DNA of 36,564 nt from Akkermansiaceae bacterium. Lineage in GTDB: Bacteria > Verrucomicrobiota > Verrucomicrobiia > Verrucomicrobiales > Akkermansiaceae. Positions 1,407 to 17,350 of this stretch are shown one piece after another; the stretch's first letter is position 1; each line of letters begins with the position of its first letter. Both the position numbers and the translations under genes were made by a program. The notes beneath the pieces are model-generated. The model had not been told where the DNA came from. It made no database searches and saw nothing but the letters and a program-made list of their open reading frames with translations. The stretch spans positions 1 to 36,564 of the forward strand of contig CANLKN010000033.1 in assembly GCA_947491475.1 (NCBI GenBank), read 5' to 3'.

Positions 1407-3410
1407 TCAATCGCTGCGTTTCGGGGTTTTAGGTTGAAAGGAAATGTCGTGTTGCCGCAGCTGGCCGTCGGCATCGATTTCTAACAGCAGCGATTGGTGC
1501 GGAGAAAATACCAGCGTTGTTTCGACGTTTGCGTTTCCGGCATGGATGCGCACCGGAATGCTGAGGGTTTCCGCAGTGAGTGATTGTCCGTAAGCCATCG
1601 GATGCTTCATGTTCTTTGCCAGCGGATGGGCGAAAAATATGATATGAGTTCCGTTTTCCACGCGGCACCAGTAATCAGGCAAATCAACGCCCTCGACCAA
1701 GGGTGGGCGCGCGGCGGTTTTCGCGAATGAGTCGGAAACCTTGGGCAGTGCGAACAGGGCATCGAGGTTGCTCTTGAAGGAATCACACTTGTTTTTTCCC
1801 GCCTGAAGCGGTCGGCGTTTCATGCACACCGGCAGTCCCTGGCGCGCGAGATCGAGGATGGTGGCAAGCACCTCGTCGCCGAGGTGCTCCGCATCCACCA
1901 GCAGCGAGGAGAACGTGAGTGCTCCGGCATGAAGCAGGCCGTTTTCAAAGCGGGCCTCTTTCAGGAAACGATGATTGATCCACAGCGGATGGTGGCCGCG
2001 CAGTTCGGGCGCGTGTTTCTCGTAGCGCAGTTCATAAGTGCCCCACGACCACTTGAGGCGCTTTTCCTCGGGATAAAGCCCGGCCATCCACGCGTCTTCG
2101 AGCGGCAGGTATTGCGCCACTCCCGAATAAGTGCGGCCGCGCTTCATCGCGGTGGAAACCTTTTCCATGTAACCGTTGAAGGCTGGCAACTCCTCCGCCA
2201 GCGGGCTGTCCGGACCGACATGCACCGAGGCGTAGAACTCCACCTGGTCGCTGCCTTGAGGGTTGAACGGCTTGCCGTGCCAGACGACGTGGTTCACGCC
2301 GTTGGCAAAAAGCGAATCCGCGAGCAGCTTGAGATCCGCCGTTTGCTCCTGGCGCATCTTCTCGCGAGGAAATCCATAGATGCAGGTGAATGTCTCACAT
2401 GAGACATCGCCGTGGCCGGCGAGCGCGGCGGCGGATGCGGCGATGCGGCCGAAGTTCGGCTCGTAAAGCAGGGCCTCGGTTTCCGGCACATCCACGGCGG
2501 CGTAGGCATCGATCAGGTCGGTGGGCGAGCCGTGGCATTGCACGCGGCTGAAGGCTCCGAGTTCGTGGCTCTTGGCGGTGAATGGCTGATAGAAATTTTT
2601 TAATACATGTTCGGAAACGAGCAACATGTAATCATGGCGCGCGTCCTTGTCGTCACCGGTGAAAATTTCCTCCATGAACGGCTCGATCTCGTAGCCGAAG
2701 CGCGCCTTGAACGCCTCGCCGAAACCATTGGTCCAGATGCGGTCGGTCTCCACTTCCCATGAATCGCAGAACAGCCCGGAGCGCGGACCCTTCAAGCCCT
2801 CGGCAAGCGCCGCAGCAAGCCGCCCGGCATATCTTTCGAAGGCGGGCTTGCTCATGTGATCGATGATGTGGCCCTGAGTCGGATATTCCCACGGGATCAG
2901 GTTTAGTTGTTTGAACTCCGGATTGCCGAAAACCTGGGTCGCGTCTTCCGCCGGCACGCCGCCGTCGCCGAAGGGCCAGGCCATGCCGAAAGTGAAATCG
3001 CACTGCAGGCCCAGGCGGCTGGCGCTGCGCTTGGCATGAGCGACGATTTCCGACCACTCGGGCGACAGCCACTCCTGGCGCGGCGTGCGGTTTTTGCGCT
3101 CCTCCTCGCTGATCCATGGGTAAAAGCGCGTGTAGCGCTCGATGTTGAGCGGATACATCCAGGCGATCTCGACGCCGCCGAAGCCGTTGGCCTTGAGCCA
3201 TTCGAGCTGGGCGTCGATGTCCTCCTCCCGGATCATCGAGGCAAACCACCACCAGCGGGTCATCGGGCGAGAATCGGGCAGGAAATGACGGCATTTTTCC
3301 GAAGTTGCGGTTCTCTCTGCGGCGGGCGGGGTGTCGGCAAGCGCGCCTCCACAAGCAATGACGGCAGCAAGGGGAAGCGCAGCCGCGGAAGCGCTGGATG
3401 TGATTTTCAT
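1407..3410 (-). CDS. Secreted GH106-like glycosidase (alpha-L-rhamnosidase type)
   Basis: Predicted exported glycoside hydrolase. The start chosen (ATG at 3410) opens MKITSSASAAALPLAAVIAC, a signal peptide ending near ALADTPP. The open frame continues upstream to 3578, but that extension adds a second hydrophobic segment and looks spurious. The mature N-terminus has the family landmarks FLPDSRPMTRWWWFASMI, WLKANGFGGVEIAW and FGMAWPFGDGG, followed by FCDSWEVE and CHGSPTDLIDAY segments rich in acidic and aromatic residues. GH106 enzymes remove terminal L-rhamnose from plant or algal polysaccharides. At 667 residues it is shorter than many GH106 proteins of roughly 900-1,100, so C-terminal beta domains may be missing. 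The upstream same-strand neighbour is a DUF2452 gene. The superfamily is likely; the sugar specificity is inference. Confidence 0.75.
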   Translation of the reverse strand: MKITSSASAAALPLAAVIACGGALADTPPAAERTATSEKCRHFLPDSRPMTRWWWFASMIREEDIDAQLEWLKANGFGGVEIAWMYPLNIERYTRFYPWISEEERKNRTPRQEWLSPEWSEIVAHAKRSASRLGLQCDFTFGMAWPFGDGGVPAEDATQVFGNPEFKQLNLIPWEYPTQGHIIDHMSKPAFERYAGRLAAALAEGLKGPRSGLFCDSWEVETDRIWTNGFGEAFKARFGYEIEPFMEEIFTGDDKDARHDYMLLVSEHVLKNFYQPFTAKSHELGAFSRVQCHGSPTDLIDAYAAVDVPETEALLYEPNFGRIAASAAALAGHGDVSCETFTCIYGFPREKMRQEQTADLKLLADSLFANGVNHVVWHGKPFNPQGSDQVEFYASVHVGPDSPLAEELPAFNGYMEKVSTAMKRGRTYSGVAQYLPLEDAWMAGLYPEEKRLKWSWGTYELRYEKHAPELRGHHPLWINHRFLKEARFENGLLHAGALTFSSLLVDAEHLGDEVLATILDLARQGLPVCMKRRPLQAGKNKCDSFKSNLDALFALPKVSDSFAKTAARPPLVEGVDLPDYWCRVENGTHIIFFAHPLAKNMKHPMAYGQSLTAETLSIPVRIHAGNANVETTLVFSPHQSLLLEIDADGQLRQHDISFQPKTPKRSD

Positions 3411-3574
3411 GCGGCTTGGATCAGGATTTAGCCTGCGGCTGTCAAGAGCGGTAAATTCAATCGGCGGCAGACTGACTCCGGCTATCACCGCAGCGCCGAT
3501 GCCAATGAAAAGCCAATGAGTGAGTGTAAAGCGCTCCGCATTCGTCATTTGGGCTGTCATGCTTGGCAGGCCTC

Positions 3575-4066
3575 TCACATCACTCCGAAAAGCTCCGCCG
3601 ACCCGATGCCCTTCCCAGTTTCAACCACCAGCCACTGGCGGTCGTAATTCAGACGCACGGTGGCAAGATGACGGTGTGGCCACTGGTCCGGAGAAATCAT
3701 CGAAAGCGCGCGGCGGCCATCGCCCATGTCGTAGAGGTGATAGATCTCGCCGACTACCGGTTCGAAGCGGATTTCCGCCTCATAAACCAGTTTGTTCCAG
3801 TTGAAGTGGTCGATCGCACGCAGGTAGTCCTCGCGGATTTCGGAGAGCTTCTGCTGCATATCGCGCTCGATCTGGGAAATTCCGCGGGTTTTGAAGGAAG
3901 TCAGATCGTTCGGAACGATCGGCGGGCTCAGCGTGGATACCGGATAGGGCATGAAAGCCCGCGACGGCTGCGCGGAAAGTTCGGGAATCGTGGTGATTTC
4001 GCTCATGGGGAATTGCGTGCGATCCATCGCCCATGATTGAGGCTGCGGCAACCCCAAAAATTCCAT
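3575..4066 (-). CDS. DUF2452 (C1orf50-like) protein
   Basis: Small soluble protein of unknown function with the DUF2452 pattern: an amphipathic helix (DLTSFKTRGISQIERDM, then QQKLSEIREDYLRAIDHF), then EIRFEPVVGEIYHLYD, then ALSMISPDQWP and a C-terminal RLNYDRQWLVVE. The YHLY...SMISPxxW core is the family hallmark, also seen in eukaryotic C1orf50. Start choice: the ATG at 4066 has AAGGGG about eight bases upstream; ATGs at 4105, 4025 and 4006 are in frame and 4006 is also plausible. The gene diverges from tex with only about 60 bases between starts, so the two promoters must overlap. No role is known for the family. Confidence 0.75.
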   Translation of the reverse strand: MEFLGLPQPQSWAMDRTQFPMSEITTIPELSAQPSRAFMPYPVSTLSPPIVPNDLTSFKTRGISQIERDMQQKLSEIREDYLRAIDHFNWNKLVYEAEIRFEPVVGEIYHLYDMGDGRRALSMISPDQWPHRHLATVRLNYDRQWLVVETGKGIGSAELFGVM

Positions 4067-9786: not shown

Positions 9787-10533
9787 ATGTTCGCTCACGA
9801 GCGTCAGCGCTTGATCCTGGACCTTCTGCGCAAGCAGCAGCGCATCGGCACCCAGGAGCTGGCAGGCCATCTGCAAGTCTCGCCCGCGACGCTGCGGCGG
9901 GACCTTGAGCAGCTCGACCGCGGCGGCGAACTCCTGCGCGTGCACGGTGGCATTATCCTGCGCAAAAACGCCATCGATGAGCCCTCGCTGCGTCAGAAGT
10001 CGGGACTCGCGACCAAGGCCAAGAAACGCATCGCCGCGCGTGTGGCGGCCGAAGTGCCGCAAGGAGCCACGGTGTTCATCGATGGCGGCACTACCTGTCT
10101 CGAAGCCGGTTTGCTGCTCCGCAAGCGCGCCGATCTGGTCATCCTCACCAACTCGCTGCCGCTGATCGCCGCCTATGACAGTTTCGAGGCGAAACTCATG
10201 GTGCTTGGCGGAGAACGCCGCGCGGTAAGCGGCGCGCTGGTCGGAAACCTGGCCATGGATGCCATCGCCCGGCTGCGGGCCGACGTGGCATTGATCGGCG
10301 CTTCCGGCCTGCACCCGCAGGATGGCCCCGGCACCACCGAGTTGCTGGAAACCGAGATCAAGCGCGAGTGGATCCACCGCGCCAGGCAGGCCTTCTTGCT
10401 CGCCGATGGCAGCAAGTGGAACCATGGCTCCACCATTCGTTTCGCCGACTGGTCCGAGTTCGCCGCCTTTTTCACCGACAAGCAGCCTCCACCATCATTC
10501 AAATCCAGAAAACTCAGAATCCTCATCGCATGA
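9787..10533 (+). CDS. DeoR-family transcriptional regulator
   Basis: 248-residue DNA-binding repressor type. The N-terminal winged helix-turn-helix (residues 1-55: RIGTQELAGHLQVSPATLRR, then DLEQLDRGGELLRVHGG) is the DeoR signature. The C-terminal ISOCOT-fold sensor domain contains FIDGGTTCLEAG, ILTNSLPL and VLGGERR, which bind phosphorylated sugars in characterised members. It is first in the sugar operon and overlaps the next gene by ATGA, so it is most likely the operon's own regulator, released by a sugar phosphate. A TTGACC -35-like element lies at 9752, and an 8-base direct repeat TTCGCTCA spans the start codon, possibly an operator. That regulatory reading is tentative. Confidence 0.93.
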   Translation: MFAHERQRLILDLLRKQQRIGTQELAGHLQVSPATLRRDLEQLDRGGELLRVHGGIILRKNAIDEPSLRQKSGLATKAKKRIAARVAAEVPQGATVFIDGGTTCLEAGLLLRKRADLVILTNSLPLIAAYDSFEAKLMVLGGERRAVSGALVGNLAMDAIARLRADVALIGASGLHPQDGPGTTELLETEIKREWIHRARQAFLLADGSKWNHGSTIRFADWSEFAAFFTDKQPPPSFKSRKLRILIA

Positions 10534-11573
10534 AACGCCTCGACCGCAAACTAACCAACATCCTCGCCGGCTCCACCTCGCCGTCGGACTTCATCATCGC
10601 CGACGCCAAGGATGCCGACATGGCCTTCGGCATCACCGCGCCCGGACCGCAATGGGGATCCTGCCGCCACGGCTACAACGAGTCGGAAGGCTGCTGGAAA
10701 ACCCTGCCTCAATACCTCGAACAAATCCGCGACGTGATCGCCCAGGACATCGTGGACATCATGCTGCTTTCCGCCTCGAATCTTGAGCGGCTCGCCATGA
10801 ATGAAGGAATCTTCCGCAATTCCGACATCACGCCCGCCGCCCGCGCCAACGACACCTCGGACGTCTGGGCCGTGCGCGGCGGCAAATATCCCACCGATCA
10901 TCCTTCGCGCTCGTTCCGTAGCGCCACCCTCGATCACATCAAATACGGCCGCCTCACCGAAAACCACGGCGTTCCTTTCTCCGGCGCGGACCTCGGCCTA
11001 TATTCAATCACCTTCACCAACAACATCGATTGGGATTACAAGGCGCTGCAGGATTTCCAGGACTTCCGCATCGAGGCCGAGCGCAAGGGCTTCCGCTACT
11101 TCCTGGAAGTGTTCAACCCGAACGTCAACCCGGGCATTCCAGACAAGAAGGTGGCGGCCTTCCTCAACGACCACATCATCCGCACGCTGGCTGGCGTGAC
11201 CGATGCCGGGCGTCCGGTTTTCCTGAAAATCCCCTACAACGGCCCCGGCCCGCTCGAGGAACTGGTTTCCTATGATCCCAAGCTCGTCGTCGGCATCCTC
11301 GGTGGCAGCGCCGGCACCACGCTCGACGCCTTCCAGTTGATCCACGACGCTCAGAAGCACGGCGCGCGCGTCGCCCTCTTCGGCCGCAAGATCAACCTAT
11401 CAGAAAGCCCGCTGGCCTTCATCGAGTTCCTGCGCCGCGTGGTGGACGGGGAGATCACGCCCACCGATGCGGTGAAAGCCTATCACTCCGTGCTCGAGCA
11501 CACCGGCATCAAGCCGCAGCGCAGTCTGCAGCAGGACATGCAACTTACCACCAACAAAATGAGTTATCGCTGA
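10530..11573 (+). CDS. Class I aldolase-like TIM-barrel protein
   Basis: 347-residue enzyme of the DeoC/LacD/FbaB-type aldolase superfamily. The second half shows VFLKIPYNGPGPLEEL, with the likely Schiff-base Lys, then VVGILGGSAGTTLDAF and GARVALFGRKINLSESP, the phosphate-binding end of the barrel. The N-terminal part (FIIADAKDADMAFGITAPGP) is less familiar. ATG at 10530 overlaps the DeoR stop by ATGA. Downstream are a lyxose-type isomerase and a PfkB kinase, so the expected job is cleavage of a ketose phosphate into dihydroxyacetone phosphate (or glyceraldehyde phosphate) plus a short aldehyde. The exact substrate cannot be read from sequence. It is not a canonical rhamnulose- or fuculose-phosphate aldolase, which are class II zinc enzymes. 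Confidence 0.75.
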   Translation: MKRLDRKLTNILAGSTSPSDFIIADAKDADMAFGITAPGPQWGSCRHGYNESEGCWKTLPQYLEQIRDVIAQDIVDIMLLSASNLERLAMNEGIFRNSDITPAARANDTSDVWAVRGGKYPTDHPSRSFRSATLDHIKYGRLTENHGVPFSGADLGLYSITFTNNIDWDYKALQDFQDFRIEAERKGFRYFLEVFNPNVNPGIPDKKVAAFLNDHIIRTLAGVTDAGRPVFLKIPYNGPGPLEELVSYDPKLVVGILGGSAGTTLDAFQLIHDAQKHGARVALFGRKINLSESPLAFIEFLRRVVDGEITPTDAVKAYHSVLEHTGIKPQRSLQQDMQLTTNKMSYR

Positions 11574-11597
11574 AATGAAACCATCCGTCCAAAATCC

Positions 11598-12170
11598 ATG
11601 AAACGCTCCGAAATCAACTCGCTCGTCGGCTCCGCCCAAACCTGCTTCGAAGCCCACGGCTGGACGCTTCCGCCCAATCCCCGCTGGGATGTCACGGACT
11701 TCGGCCTCGGCGACTGGCGCTCCTTCGGGCTCGTATTGGTCAACCTCGCCGAGCACGCCGAATACTGCGAGAAGCTGATGTATGCGCAAAAAGGCATGGC
11801 CACGCCCGCCCACTGCCACAAGCAGAAGAAGGAAGACATCATCAGCCGCTGGGGCAGCCTGCGCATCCAGTTGTGGCCCGGACCGCCTGAGGAAAGCACC
11901 GGCAAGCCGCTCTCCCTTCTGGTCAACAACAAACCGCATGAAGTGAGGGGAGGGGATTTCCTGATCCTTGAGTCCGGCCACCGCGTGACGCTCGAACCCG
12001 GCGTCTGGCATGAGTTCGCGCCCGATACCGACGAGTGCATCATCGGCGAGGTCTCCACCGCCAATGACGATGCCAATGACAACTTCTTCGCCAATCCGGA
12101 TATCGGCCGCTTTCCGGACATCGACGAGGACCAACCCGCCATTGTCAAACTCCTCAGCGACAAGCCATGA
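11598..12170 (+). CDS. D-lyxose isomerase-type sugar isomerase
   Basis: 190-residue cupin-fold sugar isomerase of the D-lyxose ketol-isomerase family (formerly DUF1498). The metal site is visible: MATPAHCHKQKKEDII supplies two His and a Glu, and GVWHEFAPDTDE supplies the third His. Characterised relatives interconvert D-lyxose and D-xylulose, and D-mannose and D-fructose. The gene lies 24 bases after the aldolase and overlaps the kinase by ATGA. It probably makes the ketose that the next gene phosphorylates. The true substrate may be another aldose with matching C2 stereochemistry. Confidence 0.88.
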   Translation: MKRSEINSLVGSAQTCFEAHGWTLPPNPRWDVTDFGLGDWRSFGLVLVNLAEHAEYCEKLMYAQKGMATPAHCHKQKKEDIISRWGSLRIQLWPGPPEESTGKPLSLLVNNKPHEVRGGDFLILESGHRVTLEPGVWHEFAPDTDECIIGEVSTANDDANDNFFANPDIGRFPDIDEDQPAIVKLLSDKP

Positions 12171-13297
12171 GCACCGGTGCCCCACTCGAACAACTTGCAA
12201 GCCTTCTGGCCGCAGGCGATCCTGCTTCGTGCCGCATTGTCACCGGTTTCGACGGCTTCGTCGATGAAATGATCACGCTTGTTGGTGAACGCCGCTCGCT
12301 CGAAGACTTCACGCCGGTGCCCGACATCGGTTCCTTCGGCACGCTGGTCAGTGCCGCAGCCGGCCACAGCAGCCTCCGCGAGATCGTCGTCAATGCCGTC
12401 CATCCCGGCGGCTGCGCGGTGAATCTTTCAGACGGGATCGCCAGCCTCGGCGTGGCAGTCGATTGCTTTGCCACGCTCGGCGAGCCAATCCACTCGGCCT
12501 TCGGCGAAATCGGGGAAAAATGCCGGACATTCCGCTCATGGGGCCGCGAACCCGGTCGCACGCTGGCCTTCGAGTTCAACGACGGCAAGCTGATGTTCAG
12601 CGCGGTGAAACAACTTGCCGATTTCACTCCGGAGTCGGTGCGCGGCTTTCTAACAGACGGCGTTTTCAGCGACGCCTGCGCGCAGGCCCAGGTCATCGCG
12701 CTCACCGACTGGACGCTCTACCCGCACATGACCGCCGTCTGGCGCATGCTGCAGGACGAGGTCTTTTCCAAGCTCACTCACCGTCCGCACATCTTCATCG
12801 ACCTGGTCGATCCATCGAGCCGTTCCGCAGCCGACATCCGCGAAGTGGCATCCATCCTGTCCGGATTTGAAGTCGCCGGTCCTCTCACACTGGGCCTTAA
12901 CGGCAATGAGGCGAACATCCTTTGCCGCCTGCATGATCTGGCGTCCGCACCAGCCGATGCCAGCCATCAGGACGCGCTCGGGCAAGCGCATGCGCTGAGG
13001 AATCTGTTAGGTGTCAGCCGTGTGGTCGTGCACCGCATCGCCTTTGCCGTCAGTTCATCGCAGGCCGGTGGTTTCACCCAGCCGGGGCCATTCTGTCCGC
13101 ACCCGAAGAAGAGTACCGGCGCTGGCGACCGCTTCAATGCCGGCTTCTGCCTCGGCCAGGCACTCGGCTTCAACGATGCCGACGCGCTCGCCCTCGGCTG
13201 CGCCACCGCCGGATTCTTCGTCCGCCACGCCCGCAGTGCCAGCCATGAGGAACTGGTGGAGTTCCTCATGCAATGGTCCACGGGAAATATCGATTGA
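12167..13297 (+). CDS. PfkB-family carbohydrate kinase
   Basis: 376-residue ribokinase-fold kinase. It has the C-terminal signature KKSTGAGDRFNAGFCLG with the catalytic Asp in GAGD (about residue 316). The N-terminal substrate-side part is RIVTGFDGFVDEMI and a Gly-Gly motif lies in VHPGGCAVNLSDG. At 376 residues it is longer than ribokinase (about 310), with extra sequence in the middle. It overlaps the isomerase gene by ATGA. In this context it should phosphorylate the ketose, probably at O1, to feed the aldolase. The phosphoryl position and donor (ATP or ADP) are not resolvable here. Confidence 0.88.
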   Translation: MSTGAPLEQLASLLAAGDPASCRIVTGFDGFVDEMITLVGERRSLEDFTPVPDIGSFGTLVSAAAGHSSLREIVVNAVHPGGCAVNLSDGIASLGVAVDCFATLGEPIHSAFGEIGEKCRTFRSWGREPGRTLAFEFNDGKLMFSAVKQLADFTPESVRGFLTDGVFSDACAQAQVIALTDWTLYPHMTAVWRMLQDEVFSKLTHRPHIFIDLVDPSSRSAADIREVASILSGFEVAGPLTLGLNGNEANILCRLHDLASAPADASHQDALGQAHALRNLLGVSRVVVHRIAFAVSSSQAGGFTQPGPFCPHPKKSTGAGDRFNAGFCLGQALGFNDADALALGCATAGFFVRHARSASHEELVEFLMQWSTGNID

Positions 13298-13303
13298 GAT
13301 ATC

Positions 13304-16243
13304 ATGAACACGATCCCCTTCGGCCAGCTGGCCTCGCGCATCACCGGAGAGCTTCACACCGGCACCACGCTGCGCCGGCTCTACGCCACCGATGCCTCGG
13401 AGTATCAGGAAATGCCCGCCGGGGTCGTGTTTCCCAAAACCGACACCGATCTTCAGGAGATCATCCGCTTCGCAAATCGCAACAAGCTCGGGCTGATCCC
13501 GCGCGCGGCGGGCACCTCGCTCGCAGGCCAGTGCGTCGGCAACGGCCTGGTGGTCGATATCTCAAAACACTTCACCCGCATCCTCACGGTGGATGCGGAA
13601 AACCGCCGCGTCCGCGTGCAGCCGGGCGTCGTGCGCAACGAGCTGAACCATTTCCTCGCCCCCCACGGACTGCTCTTCGGACCGGAAACCTCCACCGCCA
13701 ACCGGGCGATGATCGGCGGCATGGTTGGCAACAACTCCTGCGGCTCGAACTCGGTGATTTACGGCAGCACCCGCGAGCACCTCGTCTCGGTGAAAGGTTT
13801 CCTCAGCGATGGAAGCGAGGCAACCTTCCAAGCACTCACTCGTGATGAGTTCAATGCCAAGTGTGCTGGCCCCGTAACCTTGGAAACCCGCATCTATCAG
13901 AAACTTCGGGATACTCTGGCCGATCCAGAAAACCGCCGTTCCATCACGGACAACTTCCCGCTCGCATCCATTCCGCGCCGCAACACCGGCTTCGCGCTCG
14001 ACCTGCTGATGGATGCCGAGGTTTTCGATCCGGAGTCCGACAAGCCTTTCAACTTATGCAAACTGATCGCCGGCTCGGAGGGCACGCTGTTTTTCCTCAC
14101 CGAGATCGAGCTCGACTGCTCGCCGCTGCCGCCGCCACACGCCGCGCTCGTTTGCGGCCATTTCCAGTCGGTCAACGAATCGCTGCACGCCAACCTGCTC
14201 GCGCTGCCGCACGCGCCCAGCGCCTGCGAGTTGATCGACCGCCACATCCTCGAATGCACCAAGTCGAACCTCGCCCAACAGCGCAACCGTGATTTCGTGG
14301 TCGGCGATCCCGGCGCAATCCTGGTGGTGGAAATCCATCGCGACACCCGCGAGGCGGCCGAGGCGGAGGTCCGCGCGCTCATCGCCGGTTGGCAGGCTGC
14401 CGGCTACGGTTATGCCTATCCCGTGCTGTGGAATTCGGATGGCAACAAGGTCTGGGAACTGCGCCGCGCCGGCCAGGGGCTGATGAGCAATGTTGTCGGC
14501 GATGCCAAACCGCGCGAGGTTGTCGAGGATACCGCCGTGGACGTGCGCGATCTGCCGAACTACATCGCCGAGTTCGATGAACTGCTGCGCACGAAATATG
14601 GCATCGACTGTGTGTATTACGCACACGCCGGATCGGGCGAACTGCACACCCGGCCATTGTTCGATCTCAAGACGCCGGAGGGCCTGAAAATGTTCCGCGG
14701 AGTGGCCACCGACATCGCGATGCTGGTGAAAAAATACCGAGGTTCGCTCAGCGGCGAGCACGGCGACGGCCGCCTGCGCGGTGAGTTCATCCCGTTGATG
14801 GTCGGCGAACATTGTTATCAACTCATGCGCGAGGTGAAGGCGGTGTTTGATCCGGATCACATCCTCAACCCCGGCAAGATCGTGGATACTCCGCCAATGG
14901 ACAGTTCGCTGCGGCACGAGCCCGGACACCAGACTCCGGACTATGAAACGGTGTTCGATTTCAGCGAAACGCTCGGCGTGCTGCGCGCTGCTGAGAAATG
15001 CAACGGCTCCGGTGACTGCCGCAAGGGACCGCTCGCCGGTGGCACGATGTGCCCGAGTTACATGGCCACCCGCGAGGAAAAGCATACCACCCGCGCCCGC
15101 GCCAACATCCTGCGCCAGATGCTCACTCACCCGCGCGATGCCGCGCGGCCCTTCGATAGCGAGGAAATCAAGGAGGTGATGGACCTTTGCCTGTCATGCA
15201 AGGCCTGCAAATCCGAGTGCCCGTCGAGCGTGGACATCGCGAAACTCAAGGCCGAGTTCCTCCAACATTATTATGATTCAAACGGCGTGCCGCTGCGCTC
15301 GTGGATCGTCTCGCGTTTTACCGACAGCGCGCGTCTCGCCTCGCTCGCGCCATGGCTTTACAATGCCGTGCTGCAAACGCCCGCACTGCGCCGTGTCACC
15401 AACCGCATGCTCGGTTTCCACCCGGAGCGCACCATGCCGCGCCTCAACCGCATGCCGCTCCACCGTTGGTTCGCCAAGCGCACACCGCTCCGGCCGCTGC
15501 GCGCCAAACAAGGCCGCGTCCATTTGTTCTGCGACGAGTTCACCGACTACAACGACCTTGATGCCGGCATCGCCACCGTTGAGCTGCTCGAGTTGTTAGG
15601 ATATGAGGTCAACCTGCCGAACCACGTCGAGAGTGGCCGGGCGTCGTTTTCCAAAGGTCTCATCCGTCGGGCGAAATCGTTCGCCGATCAAAATGTCCGC
15701 CTGCTTGCGCCGCTTGTTTCCAAAGAAGAACCGCTCATTGGCATCGAGCCCTCGGCGATCCTCGGCTTCCGCGACGAGTATCCGGTGCTGGTCGATCCCG
15801 CGCTGCGGCCGGCCGCCCGCGAACTCGCGCCGCACTGCCTGATGCTCGACGAGTTCATCGCCCGCGAGGCGGATGCCGGGCGTATCGACGCCACGCTCTT
15901 CACCCGCGAGCCACGCGCGGTGCACCTCCACGGCCACTGCCACCAGAAGGCGCTGGCCTCGGTGGAACCGACCGCGCGCATGCTGTCATTGCCGGAAAAC
16001 TATCAGGTCACCGTGATCCCGTCCGGCTGCTGTGGCATGGCCGGTTCCTTCGGCTATGAAAAAGAGCACTACGAGGTCTCCATGAACGTCGGCGAACTCG
16101 TCCTCTTCCCCGCGGCCCGCGCGCTGCCGGACGATGCCATCCTCGCCGCCCCCGGCACCAGCTGCCGCCACCAGATCCACGATGGCACAGGCCGCGCGGC
16201 ACTGCATCCGGCGCAAGTTCTCAGGCAGGCACTCCGACGGTAG
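13304..16243 (+). CDS. FAD- and Fe-S-dependent 2-hydroxyacid dehydrogenase
   Basis: 979-residue fusion oxidoreductase of the D-lactate/glycolate dehydrogenase type. Domains in order: PCMH FAD-binding (about 35-270; GLIPRAAGTSLAGQCVGNGL); FAD-oxidase C-terminal domain with substrate-site His residues (HAGSGELHTRP, SGEHGDGRLRGEF); a ferredoxin-like segment with CNGSGDCRKGP and CLSCKACKSECPSSVD for two [4Fe-4S] clusters; and a C-terminal Cys-rich CCG-type domain (HGHCHQKA, PSGCCGMAGSFGYEKEH). It probably passes electrons to quinone at the membrane face. It is the last gene of the sugar operon, six bases after the kinase. It would oxidise the 2-hydroxyacid derived from the aldolase's aldehyde product: glycolate if the sugar is a pentose, lactate if a 6-deoxyhexose. 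Substrate is inference. Confidence 0.9.
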   Translation: MNTIPFGQLASRITGELHTGTTLRRLYATDASEYQEMPAGVVFPKTDTDLQEIIRFANRNKLGLIPRAAGTSLAGQCVGNGLVVDISKHFTRILTVDAENRRVRVQPGVVRNELNHFLAPHGLLFGPETSTANRAMIGGMVGNNSCGSNSVIYGSTREHLVSVKGFLSDGSEATFQALTRDEFNAKCAGPVTLETRIYQKLRDTLADPENRRSITDNFPLASIPRRNTGFALDLLMDAEVFDPESDKPFNLCKLIAGSEGTLFFLTEIELDCSPLPPPHAALVCGHFQSVNESLHANLLALPHAPSACELIDRHILECTKSNLAQQRNRDFVVGDPGAILVVEIHRDTREAAEAEVRALIAGWQAAGYGYAYPVLWNSDGNKVWELRRAGQGLMSNVVGDAKPREVVEDTAVDVRDLPNYIAEFDELLRTKYGIDCVYYAHAGSGELHTRPLFDLKTPEGLKMFRGVATDIAMLVKKYRGSLSGEHGDGRLRGEFIPLMVGEHCYQLMREVKAVFDPDHILNPGKIVDTPPMDSSLRHEPGHQTPDYETVFDFSETLGVLRAAEKCNGSGDCRKGPLAGGTMCPSYMATREEKHTTRARANILRQMLTHPRDAARPFDSEEIKEVMDLCLSCKACKSECPSSVDIAKLKAEFLQHYYDSNGVPLRSWIVSRFTDSARLASLAPWLYNAVLQTPALRRVTNRMLGFHPERTMPRLNRMPLHRWFAKRTPLRPLRAKQGRVHLFCDEFTDYNDLDAGIATVELLELLGYEVNLPNHVESGRASFSKGLIRRAKSFADQNVRLLAPLVSKEEPLIGIEPSAILGFRDEYPVLVDPALRPAARELAPHCLMLDEFIAREADAGRIDATLFTREPRAVHLHGHCHQKALASVEPTARMLSLPENYQVTVIPSGCCGMAGSFGYEKEHYEVSMNVGELVLFPAARALPDDAILAAPGTSCRHQIHDGTGRAALHPAQVLRQALRR

Positions 16244-16396: not shown

Positions 16397-17350
16397 ATGA
16401 AATTTTTCGGCAAAACCACCATCAGCACAACGAGGGTGCGGCTTGAGGACGCGTTGAAGCATTTGCTCGATTGTGATGAATCCGGGCGCGGTGCGACGGT
16501 CGATAGCCTTGCCGGTGCGCTCTCGCAGCCGCGCGGCGAGGCGGCGGAAATTTTGGGCCAACTGCGCGGACGGGGCCTGGCGACTGCCACCGGCGACGCG
16601 CATCACCTCACTGAGGACGGGCGATTGTATGCCCTGCAAGTGGTGCGTACGCACCGGCTTTATGAAACCTGGCTGGCCCGTGAAACGAGCACTCCGGCGG
16701 TCGATTGGCATCGCGAGGCGCACAAGGCGGAACATCATTTGGAAGCGGAGGCGGTTGATGCGCTTGCCGACCGTTTGAACAACCCGCGTTTCGATCCGCA
16801 CGGCGATCCGATACCCACTCGGGAAGGGCAAATGCCGCGCCGTGCGCTGGTCTCGCTGGCCTCGTGGCCGGATGGAAGTCCGGCGCGCATCGAGCACATC
16901 GAGGACGAGCCCGAGTCCTTGTTTCTCCAGGCCGAGGCACTTGGCTTCGCGCCAGCCACGCGCCTTGATGAACCCCGACACCTTGATGACGGCTCCATCG
17001 AATGTCGCGTCGAGGGACGAATCGTCACCATTCCCGCAGCAGTGGCCACGCTGATCCACGTGGCCGGGCCCGGGCCGGAGGATCAACCGCCCGCATGCCT
17101 GGCCCGCTTGTCCGACCTGCCGGTGGGGGGCGAGGCGCTGGTTTACGCGCTTGCCCCATCGTGCACCGGGTCGGAGCGCCGCCGCCTGCTGGATCTCGGC
17201 GTGGTGCCCGGCACGCGCATCCGCTGCGAGTTCGCCAGCCCCTTCGGCACACCGCGTAGTTATGACATCCGCGGCGCGCTCATCGCCCTGCGCGACCATC
17301 AGGCGGAGCGCATCCTGATCCACCAACCTGTGGCCCCAACAAGCGCATGA
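16397..17350 (+). CDS. DtxR-family metalloregulator fused to FeoA-like domains
   Basis: 317 residues. The N-terminus is a DtxR/MntR winged helix (about 10-75). The dimerisation and metal-binding domain follows, with WHREAHKAEHHLEAEAVDAL and the Pro-rich NPRFDPHGDPIPTREGQ, both typical of the family. The rest consists of one SH3/FeoA-like domain (about 145-225) and a clear C-terminal FeoA domain (about 235-310; LLDLGVVPGTRIRCEFASPF). It should sense Fe(II) or Mn(II), bind the box at 16359-16376, and supply the FeoA function to the transporter. FeoA is normally a separate small protein or fused to FeoB, so its place on the regulator is notable. The stop overlaps the FeoB GTPase start by ATGA. 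Confidence 0.88.
   Translation: MKFFGKTTISTTRVRLEDALKHLLDCDESGRGATVDSLAGALSQPRGEAAEILGQLRGRGLATATGDAHHLTEDGRLYALQVVRTHRLYETWLARETSTPAVDWHREAHKAEHHLEAEAVDALADRLNNPRFDPHGDPIPTREGQMPRRALVSLASWPDGSPARIEHIEDEPESLFLQAEALGFAPATRLDEPRHLDDGSIECRVEGRIVTIPAAVATLIHVAGPGPEDQPPACLARLSDLPVGGEALVYALAPSCTGSERRRLLDLGVVPGTRIRCEFASPFGTPRSYDIRGALIALRDHQAERILIHQPVAPTSA

Follow-up and report, generated by a model that had tools for sequence, protein, structure and literature searches.

A five-gene operon of an Akkermansiaceae bacterium encodes a class I aldolase of an unnamed family and a predicted ketose-1-phosphate pathway, and tailed relatives of the aldolase occur in PVM microcompartment loci

Three described systems are among the closest to the locus presented here. 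In the mammalian fructose route, a ketose 1-kinase (ketohexokinase) is followed by a class I aldolase (aldolase B), which yields dihydroxyacetone phosphate (DHAP) and an aldehyde. In the haloarchaeal fructose/mannitol route (Khk, FruK, FbaB1), a ketohexokinase of the family PF25270 produces fructose-1-phosphate, which receives a second phosphate before the resulting bisphosphate is cleaved (PMC11519228). The third system is the PVM microcompartment, an organelle of Planctomycetes and Verrucomicrobia for fucose and rhamnose, the signature aldolase of which is a class II enzyme, PF00596 (PMC4207490). Here, we describe an operon at positions 9787-16243 on the plus strand of a stretch of 36,564 nucleotides from an Akkermansiaceae bacterium (assembly GCA_947491475.1, contig CANLKN010000033.1), and this whole stretch is called the window in the following. 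The operon encodes a regulator, a class I aldolase, an aldose-ketose isomerase, a sugar kinase and a D-2-hydroxyacid dehydrogenase.

The scheme predicted for this operon resembles the mammalian route, with a ketose 1-kinase acting before a class I aldolase that forms DHAP and an aldehyde. However, the operon is bacterial, its aldolase belongs to another class I subgroup, an aldose isomerase acts first, and the aldehyde is predicted to be oxidized and not phosphorylated. With the haloarchaeal route the operon has the kinase family PF25270 in common, but it contains no 1-phosphofructokinase, and sequence searches revealed no likeness between the haloarchaeal aldolase and the aldolase of the window. 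Many loci of the PVM microcompartment encode aldolases of the same family with a C-terminal tail, next to aldehyde dehydrogenase, PduL, acetate kinase and shell proteins. In contrast, the window operon has no shell genes, no PduL, no aldehyde dehydrogenase of the CoA-acylating type and no class II aldolase, and its class I aldolase does not carry the tail.

Overall, the general chain of isomerase, kinase, aldolase and dehydrogenase, which had already been read from the gene content in a preliminary description of the locus, is well supported, and we propose it with considerable confidence. The computations establish the gene order, the families, the fold of the aldolase, the conserved residues and the conservation of the operon as a unit. 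The substrate is a best guess, with a hexose being somewhat preferable to a pentose, and the tailed, probably encapsulated sister clade of the aldolase is the most surprising part of the analysis. With modest confidence, we regard the whole operon as encoding a cytosolic ketose-1-phosphate pathway, most likely starting from D-mannose. The cupin isomerase would convert an aldose, most likely D-mannose, to D-fructose, which the kinase would phosphorylate at C1 to fructose-1-phosphate. The aldolase, via a Schiff base on K233, would then cleave fructose-1-phosphate to DHAP and D-glyceraldehyde. An aldehyde dehydrogenase encoded outside the operon would form D-glycerate, and the FAD/iron-sulfur (Fe-S) enzyme would oxidize D-glycerate to hydroxypyruvate and deliver the electrons to the respiratory chain. 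Phosphorylation at C1, the identity of substrate and products and the supply of one step from outside the operon are our inferences. Many class I aldolases naturally act on fructose bisphosphate, and its configuration at C3/C4 is shared by D-fructose and D-xylulose. If the proposed pathway exists, bacteria would have a route in which, as in the liver, fructose-1-phosphate is cleaved directly and not via the bisphosphate.

The aldolase (P0001; 10530-11573, plus strand, 347 amino acids) had been called unfamiliar, and this proved to be correct. It reached no Pfam family, with PF01791 (DeoC/LacD) not being reported at E-values up to 0.1, and sequence searches against the PDB gave no match, regardless of whether the single sequence, a 34-row profile or the C-terminal part was used. 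Two low E-values came from repeats of designed barrels. Among the NCBIfam models, only a weak similarity to class I models was found in the last third of the protein (LsrF 3.9e-5, far below the cut-off). However, the AlphaFold2 model based on the alignment of 34 aldolase sequences (pLDDT 88.3) is a (beta/alpha)8 barrel, most of which can be matched to known class I aldolases. The top structural match is the ADH synthase of M. jannaschii (2qji, Z 21.9, root-mean-square deviation (rmsd) 3.3 A over 255 residues), and further matches are 8tnf (Z 20.8, rmsd 3.6 over 257), 1ok6 (Z 20.7) and 3mhg (Z 20.4). The proteins matched by fold are class I aldolases or close relatives of these, namely LsrF, archaeal fructose bisphosphate aldolase, the sulfohexulose-1-phosphate aldolase 8tnf, LacD and YihT. 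The window aldolase shares the fold, a probable Schiff-base lysine and probable phosphate-binding elements with this group, but the identity in the structural alignments is only about 10-17% and its profile has no confident match in Pfam or the PDB.

K233, located in an FLK motif, is invariant across the 34 homologs and is followed by a conserved GGSAGTT (258-264) and the GRK-I motif (GRK, 285-287). The distance from K233 to the GG is 25 residues, compared to 26 in the PF01791 aldolase P0008 with the same motif order (counted by hand). In a profile comparison between the family and a PF01791 protein, only the last 49 columns were aligned, and with low probability. The assignment of K233 thus rests on motif order and spacing. 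K233 is probably the Schiff-base lysine, and GGSAGTT and GRK are probably elements of phosphate binding. Judging from the modeled fold, we consider the protein to be a class I aldolase of an unnamed family. A description of this family was not found in the literature searched, with subscription papers, including the original PVM paper, lying mostly outside that search. As sampled, the relatives of the window aldolase belong to Verrucomicrobiota, Planctomycetota and Kiritimatiellota. If the proposed role is true, the family, which is present in 65 of the 285 sampled genomes of the class, would receive a name and a function. In the aldolase tree, three records labeled as Proteobacteria or Klebsiella pneumoniae (L101, L106 and L110) are placed among those of Verrucomicrobiota and are probably mislabeled bins.

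The isomerase (P0002; 11598-12170, plus strand, 190 amino acids) is a cupin of the D-lyxose/D-mannose type. It matches PF07385 (Lyx_isomer) with 157.7 bits at a cut-off of 20.8 (3.4e-46) and the D-lyxose isomerase 3kmh from E. coli with 8.5e-26. In the isomerase from Thermofilum (7nzo), the sugar and Mn ligands are K62, H75, H77, K86, E88, H143, E156 and D163 (PMC8378251). By sequence alignment, these correspond to K59, H72, H74, K77, E79, H138, E151 and D158 of the window protein, and all eight residues are invariant in 23 of 23 isomerase homologs. It therefore has both the cupin family and all eight ligands in common with the D-lyxose isomerases from E. coli and Thermofilum, although it misses the NCBIfam cut-off for Gram-negative D-lyxose/D-mannose isomerases (103 versus 350 bits). 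These similarities suggest that it isomerizes aldoses of the D-lyxose/D-mannose type.

The kinase (P0003; 12167-13297, plus strand) had been assigned to the PfkB type. Its nature as a sugar kinase stands, but it is better termed a member of the ketohexokinase family, since the match to PF25270 (Khk; 176.2 bits, cut-off 35, 1.5e-51) is more specific than that to PfkB (9.6e-9) and covers nearly the full length (positions 23-364 of 365). The motif G[AS]GD is present in 25 of 25 kinase homologs. The lone control genome that passed the PF25270 cut-off is probably that of Haloferax volcanii. The enzyme is predicted to be a ketose 1-kinase. The window genome contains three PF25270 genes including this one. 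A second ketohexokinase-family gene of genome G000 (contig C130, L160:3031-5553) adjoins the gene for a protein of the type designated c16, and genes for a GlcD-like FAD protein and for a GH9 protein lie in the vicinity. The c16 protein was considered as an isomerase, but was dropped since it has no family or structure match in Pfam or among solved structures; a mutarotase-like role is a guess based on a DUF4432 protein at the corresponding place in locus L035.

The dehydrogenase (P0004; 13304-16243, plus strand, 979 amino acids) is a fusion of FAD_binding_4 (PF01565) and FAD-oxidase_C (PF02913) with an Fe-S dicluster part, and it is the sole full-length copy in the window genome. It scores 584.7 bits against the model of YdiJ, a D-2-hydroxyglutarate dehydrogenase (NF049975), which is below the curated cut-off of 1350, and its C-terminal part reaches 207.5 bits with GlpC models, again below the cut-off (278). 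By its domains, the protein is a D-2-hydroxyacid dehydrogenase similar to GlcD-GlcF, which is related to YdiJ but, by the cut-off, not identical with it.

Together with the DeoR/GlpR-type regulator (P0005; 9787-10533, plus strand; HTH_DeoR/DeoRC, PF00455 2.9e-37 and PF08220 7e-15), which is the first gene, these genes are arranged on one strand with overlaps or short gaps. Regulator and aldolase overlap by 4 bases, aldolase and isomerase are separated by 24 bases, isomerase and kinase again overlap by 4 bases, and a gap of 6 bases precedes the dehydrogenase gene. This suggests a single transcript and confirms the five-gene operon originally proposed. Scans for promoters and terminators gave nothing beyond chance. 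Another genome of this genus, G385, carries all five genes in the same order inside 6.5 kb (L187:4379-10884), with identities of 65% for the regulator, 90% for the aldolase, 76-77% for the isomerase, 70% for the kinase and 82% for the dehydrogenase. On both sides, the flanking genes of this locus do not match those of the window. The ratios of nonsynonymous to synonymous substitutions (dN/dS) between the two loci are 0.21, 0.09, 0.13, 0.17 and 0.11 in the same gene order, and all five genes are under purifying selection. The synteny, the foreign flanks and the low dN/dS values together indicate that the operon is a maintained unit. Within the sampled genomes of the genus its occurrence is patchy, with a full-length aldolase in five genomes and none in at least 20, and parts of the operon recur across dozens of Verrucomicrobiota. 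The designation as an orphan operon holds only insofar as the family of the aldolase has no name.

We compared 121 aldolase loci. In the stand-alone operons, the aldolase is accompanied by an isomerase, by PF25270 or other PfkB kinases and by a DeoR or AraC regulator, and a DeoR gene adjoins the aldolase gene in many related loci. An aldehyde dehydrogenase, which is indeed absent from the window operon as had been stated before, adjoins the aldolase in four loci, and the window genome contains several such enzymes outside the operon. Locus L063 has consecutive genes for kinase, aldolase, aldehyde dehydrogenase, GlcD and GlcF, and L078 (Coraliomargarita) encodes regulator, aldolase, aldehyde dehydrogenase, isomerase and kinase. 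L056:6476-13830 and L057:5647-12921 comprise an isomerase-like protein (X520), a PfkB kinase, the aldolase, an aldehyde dehydrogenase, a kinase of the APH fold and enolase, and L075 comprises aldolase, kinase and enolase. The placement of a kinase gene between genes for an acid-forming enzyme and for enolase points to the conversion of glycerate via 2-phosphoglycerate to phosphoenolpyruvate, and the APH-fold kinase of L056 and L057 is predicted to be a glycerate 2-kinase. A fused dehydrogenase with 71% identity to that of the window directly follows the aldolase in L073, and L081 has a GlcD-type dehydrogenase after its aldolase. A GH2 protein ends the operon in L032, L040, L044 and L082, and the copy from L082 has beta-mannosidases as its best PDB match (5n6u, 6.1e-61). 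Taken together, the neighboring GH2/beta-mannosidase, enolase, aldehyde dehydrogenase and GlcD/GlcF genes favor a D-mannose route. In two genomes (L039:10630-12589 and L092:2986-5076), the aldolase operon is directly preceded by a second aldolase-like gene and a gene for a Gfo/Idh-type oxidoreductase; the aldolase-like protein of L092 belongs to PF01791.

There are also several points that weigh against a pathway from D-mannose. The window operon itself contains neither a mannosidase nor an aldehyde dehydrogenase. The window genome encodes a glycerate kinase (PF02595), so that D-glycerate could just be phosphorylated and a glycerate oxidase seems unnecessary, and it also encodes a separate 1-phosphofructokinase, so that fructose-1-phosphate could be used conventionally. 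GlcD-like dehydrogenases fit glycolate at least equally well, which favors a pentose as substrate. Moreover, R171 of the isomerase is conserved in 23 of 23 homologs and is the counterpart of R175, which has been held responsible for the lyxose specificity of the Thermofilum isomerase (PMC8378251); the E. coli enzyme has this arginine too. It should also be considered that substrates may differ between related operons.

The preliminary description had proposed a pentose giving glycolate or a 6-deoxyhexose giving lactate, and the pentose still is the main rival of a hexose. In this case, D-lyxose would be converted via D-xylulose and D-xylulose-1-phosphate to DHAP and glycolaldehyde, the latter being oxidized to glycolate and finally, by the FAD/Fe-S enzyme, to glyoxylate. 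D-lyxose is rare in nature. The isomerase family acts on D-lyxose, with at least one nearly lyxose-specific member (PMC8378251), and the conserved R171 is in line with such a substrate. The dehydrogenase of L063 is most similar to GlcD and GlcF of glycolate oxidase (491.9 and 245.7 bits), and a terminal oxidase fits glycolate better than glycerate. However, the beta-mannosidase-type and enolase neighbors are better explained by a hexose, which had not been considered before, and Verruconatronum, a related Opitutales isolate in which carriage of the operon is not established, grows on mannose but not on lyxose (PMC13274419). We therefore regard the pentose route as possible but rather doubtful, and D-mannose as the preferred substrate.

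The link of the aldolase family to the PVM microcompartment emerged from the same 121 loci. In approximately 45 of them (L043-L055, L064, L065 and many of L099-L144; for example L047:9048-10355), the aldolase gene is part of a PVM locus, usually as the last gene, and follows genes for PduL, BMC-H, acetate kinase, BMC-P, aldehyde dehydrogenase, class II aldolase and a lactate/malate-type dehydrogenase. The aldolases encoded there carry 41-101 additional C-terminal residues, which consist of a variable linker and a terminal PDFxxMTxxQRxAYHxxRLxRxFG or, in a small number of copies, another helix-like end such as QNIRKRLGE. The single exception is L035, a stand-alone operon with an untailed aldolase that is situated close to a PVM locus without being part of it. 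When PVM genes were counted as neighbors if they lay no more than 4 kb away and in the same orientation, the tail was found in all copies with such neighbors (48 of 48), compared to 16 of 71 other copies (Fisher 9.5e-20, kinship not removed). In the tree, two changes suffice to explain the tail, compared to 38.5 under shuffled labels; it is thus a clade property and the counts are not independent. The window aldolase belongs to the untailed clade and ends one residue past the conserved domain.

The tail resembles an encapsulation peptide and probably sends these aldolases into PVM microcompartments. A regular expression for the tail found 53 aldolases and one other open reading frame among approximately 1,000 unlabeled neighbors. 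The hydrophobic moment of the tail is 0.39 compared to a shuffled mean of 0.27, but for individual copies the difference does not reach significance (mean p 0.24). In a fold prediction for a tailed copy, the barrel failed (mean pLDDT 45), whereas the last helix alone reached about 76-87. Other PVM cargo proteins have different but helix-like ends, namely at the N-terminus of the aldehyde dehydrogenase and the C-terminus of the class II aldolase. Some tailed copies (L042, L094 and L145) are encoded in operons that comprise isomerase, kinase and aldolase but no shell genes, as would be expected from satellite operons of a microcompartment. Two small genes following the aldolase in L094 were considered as shell proteins and dropped, as they had no Pfam match.

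In the available parts of three PVM surveys (PMC4207490, PMC8217296 and PMC8857213), which name the class II aldolase as signature, the class I aldolase is not mentioned. Among the 285 genomes of the class, PduL is present in 55 of the 65 that have the aldolase, compared to 43 of the 220 that lack it (Fisher 9e-22, kinship uncorrected). Tentatively, we suggest that this new class I family has two roles: the tailed enzyme would be a second cargo aldolase of the PVM microcompartment in Verrucomicrobiota and Planctomycetota, next to the class II enzyme, so that the organelle would take D-sugars like mannose and fructose in addition to fucose and rhamnose, and in the untailed window clade the same chemistry would be served and the pathway would be cytosolic, with the FAD/Fe-S dehydrogenase replacing the shell. 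If this is true, a microcompartment that is tied to the breakdown of algal and plant polysaccharides, and for which one aldolase and two sugars have been described to date, would gain another aldolase and further substrates. Since the enzyme exists both with and without the tail, it would also provide a natural test for the purpose of encapsulation.

The tailed sister clade could also be taken as an argument for a 6-deoxyhexose, which would be degraded via lactaldehyde to lactate and further to pyruvate by the FAD/Fe-S enzyme, since PVM loci are known to degrade L-fucose and L-rhamnose via lactaldehyde (PMC4207490, PMC8857213). In addition, a GH106 alpha-L-rhamnosidase is present in the window (1407-3578). 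However, as had been stated before, the rhamnosidase gene lies beyond unrelated genes; it is located on the minus strand and shows no sign of operon membership. PVM loci already contain a class II aldolase for these two sugars, and the window genome has its own canonical PVM locus of the fucose/rhamnose type on contig C1, with a class II and without a class I aldolase. Moreover, L-fucose and L-rhamnose give L-lactate, whereas the dehydrogenase belongs to the D-2-hydroxyacid group. A 6-deoxyhexose is thus the worst fit among the sugars considered and improbable as substrate.

Finally, it is quite improbable that the barrel enzyme is transaldolase- or thiolase-like, as are ADH synthase and LsrF, or uses a sulfonated or otherwise modified sugar: although ADH synthase and LsrF are its best fold matches and 8tnf is also among them, X520 is a far relative of sulfoquinovose isomerase (5.6e-28, below the cut-off) and sulfatases occur near some aldolase loci, most stand-alone operons contain a kinase and several contain aldehyde and hydroxyacid dehydrogenases, which fits the release of a free aldehyde, and no sulfonate-specific gene is present among the neighbors examined.

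Two minor observations concern shell proteins and the surroundings of the operon. Genome G000 possesses, apart from its main PVM locus, an open reading frame with hits to BMC shell domains (contig C36, L152:11652-12299), and the same stretch gave two such hits. In the window, a pair of genes that resembles FeoA and FeoB (assigned by eye) begins at position 16397, which is 153 bases downstream of the operon.

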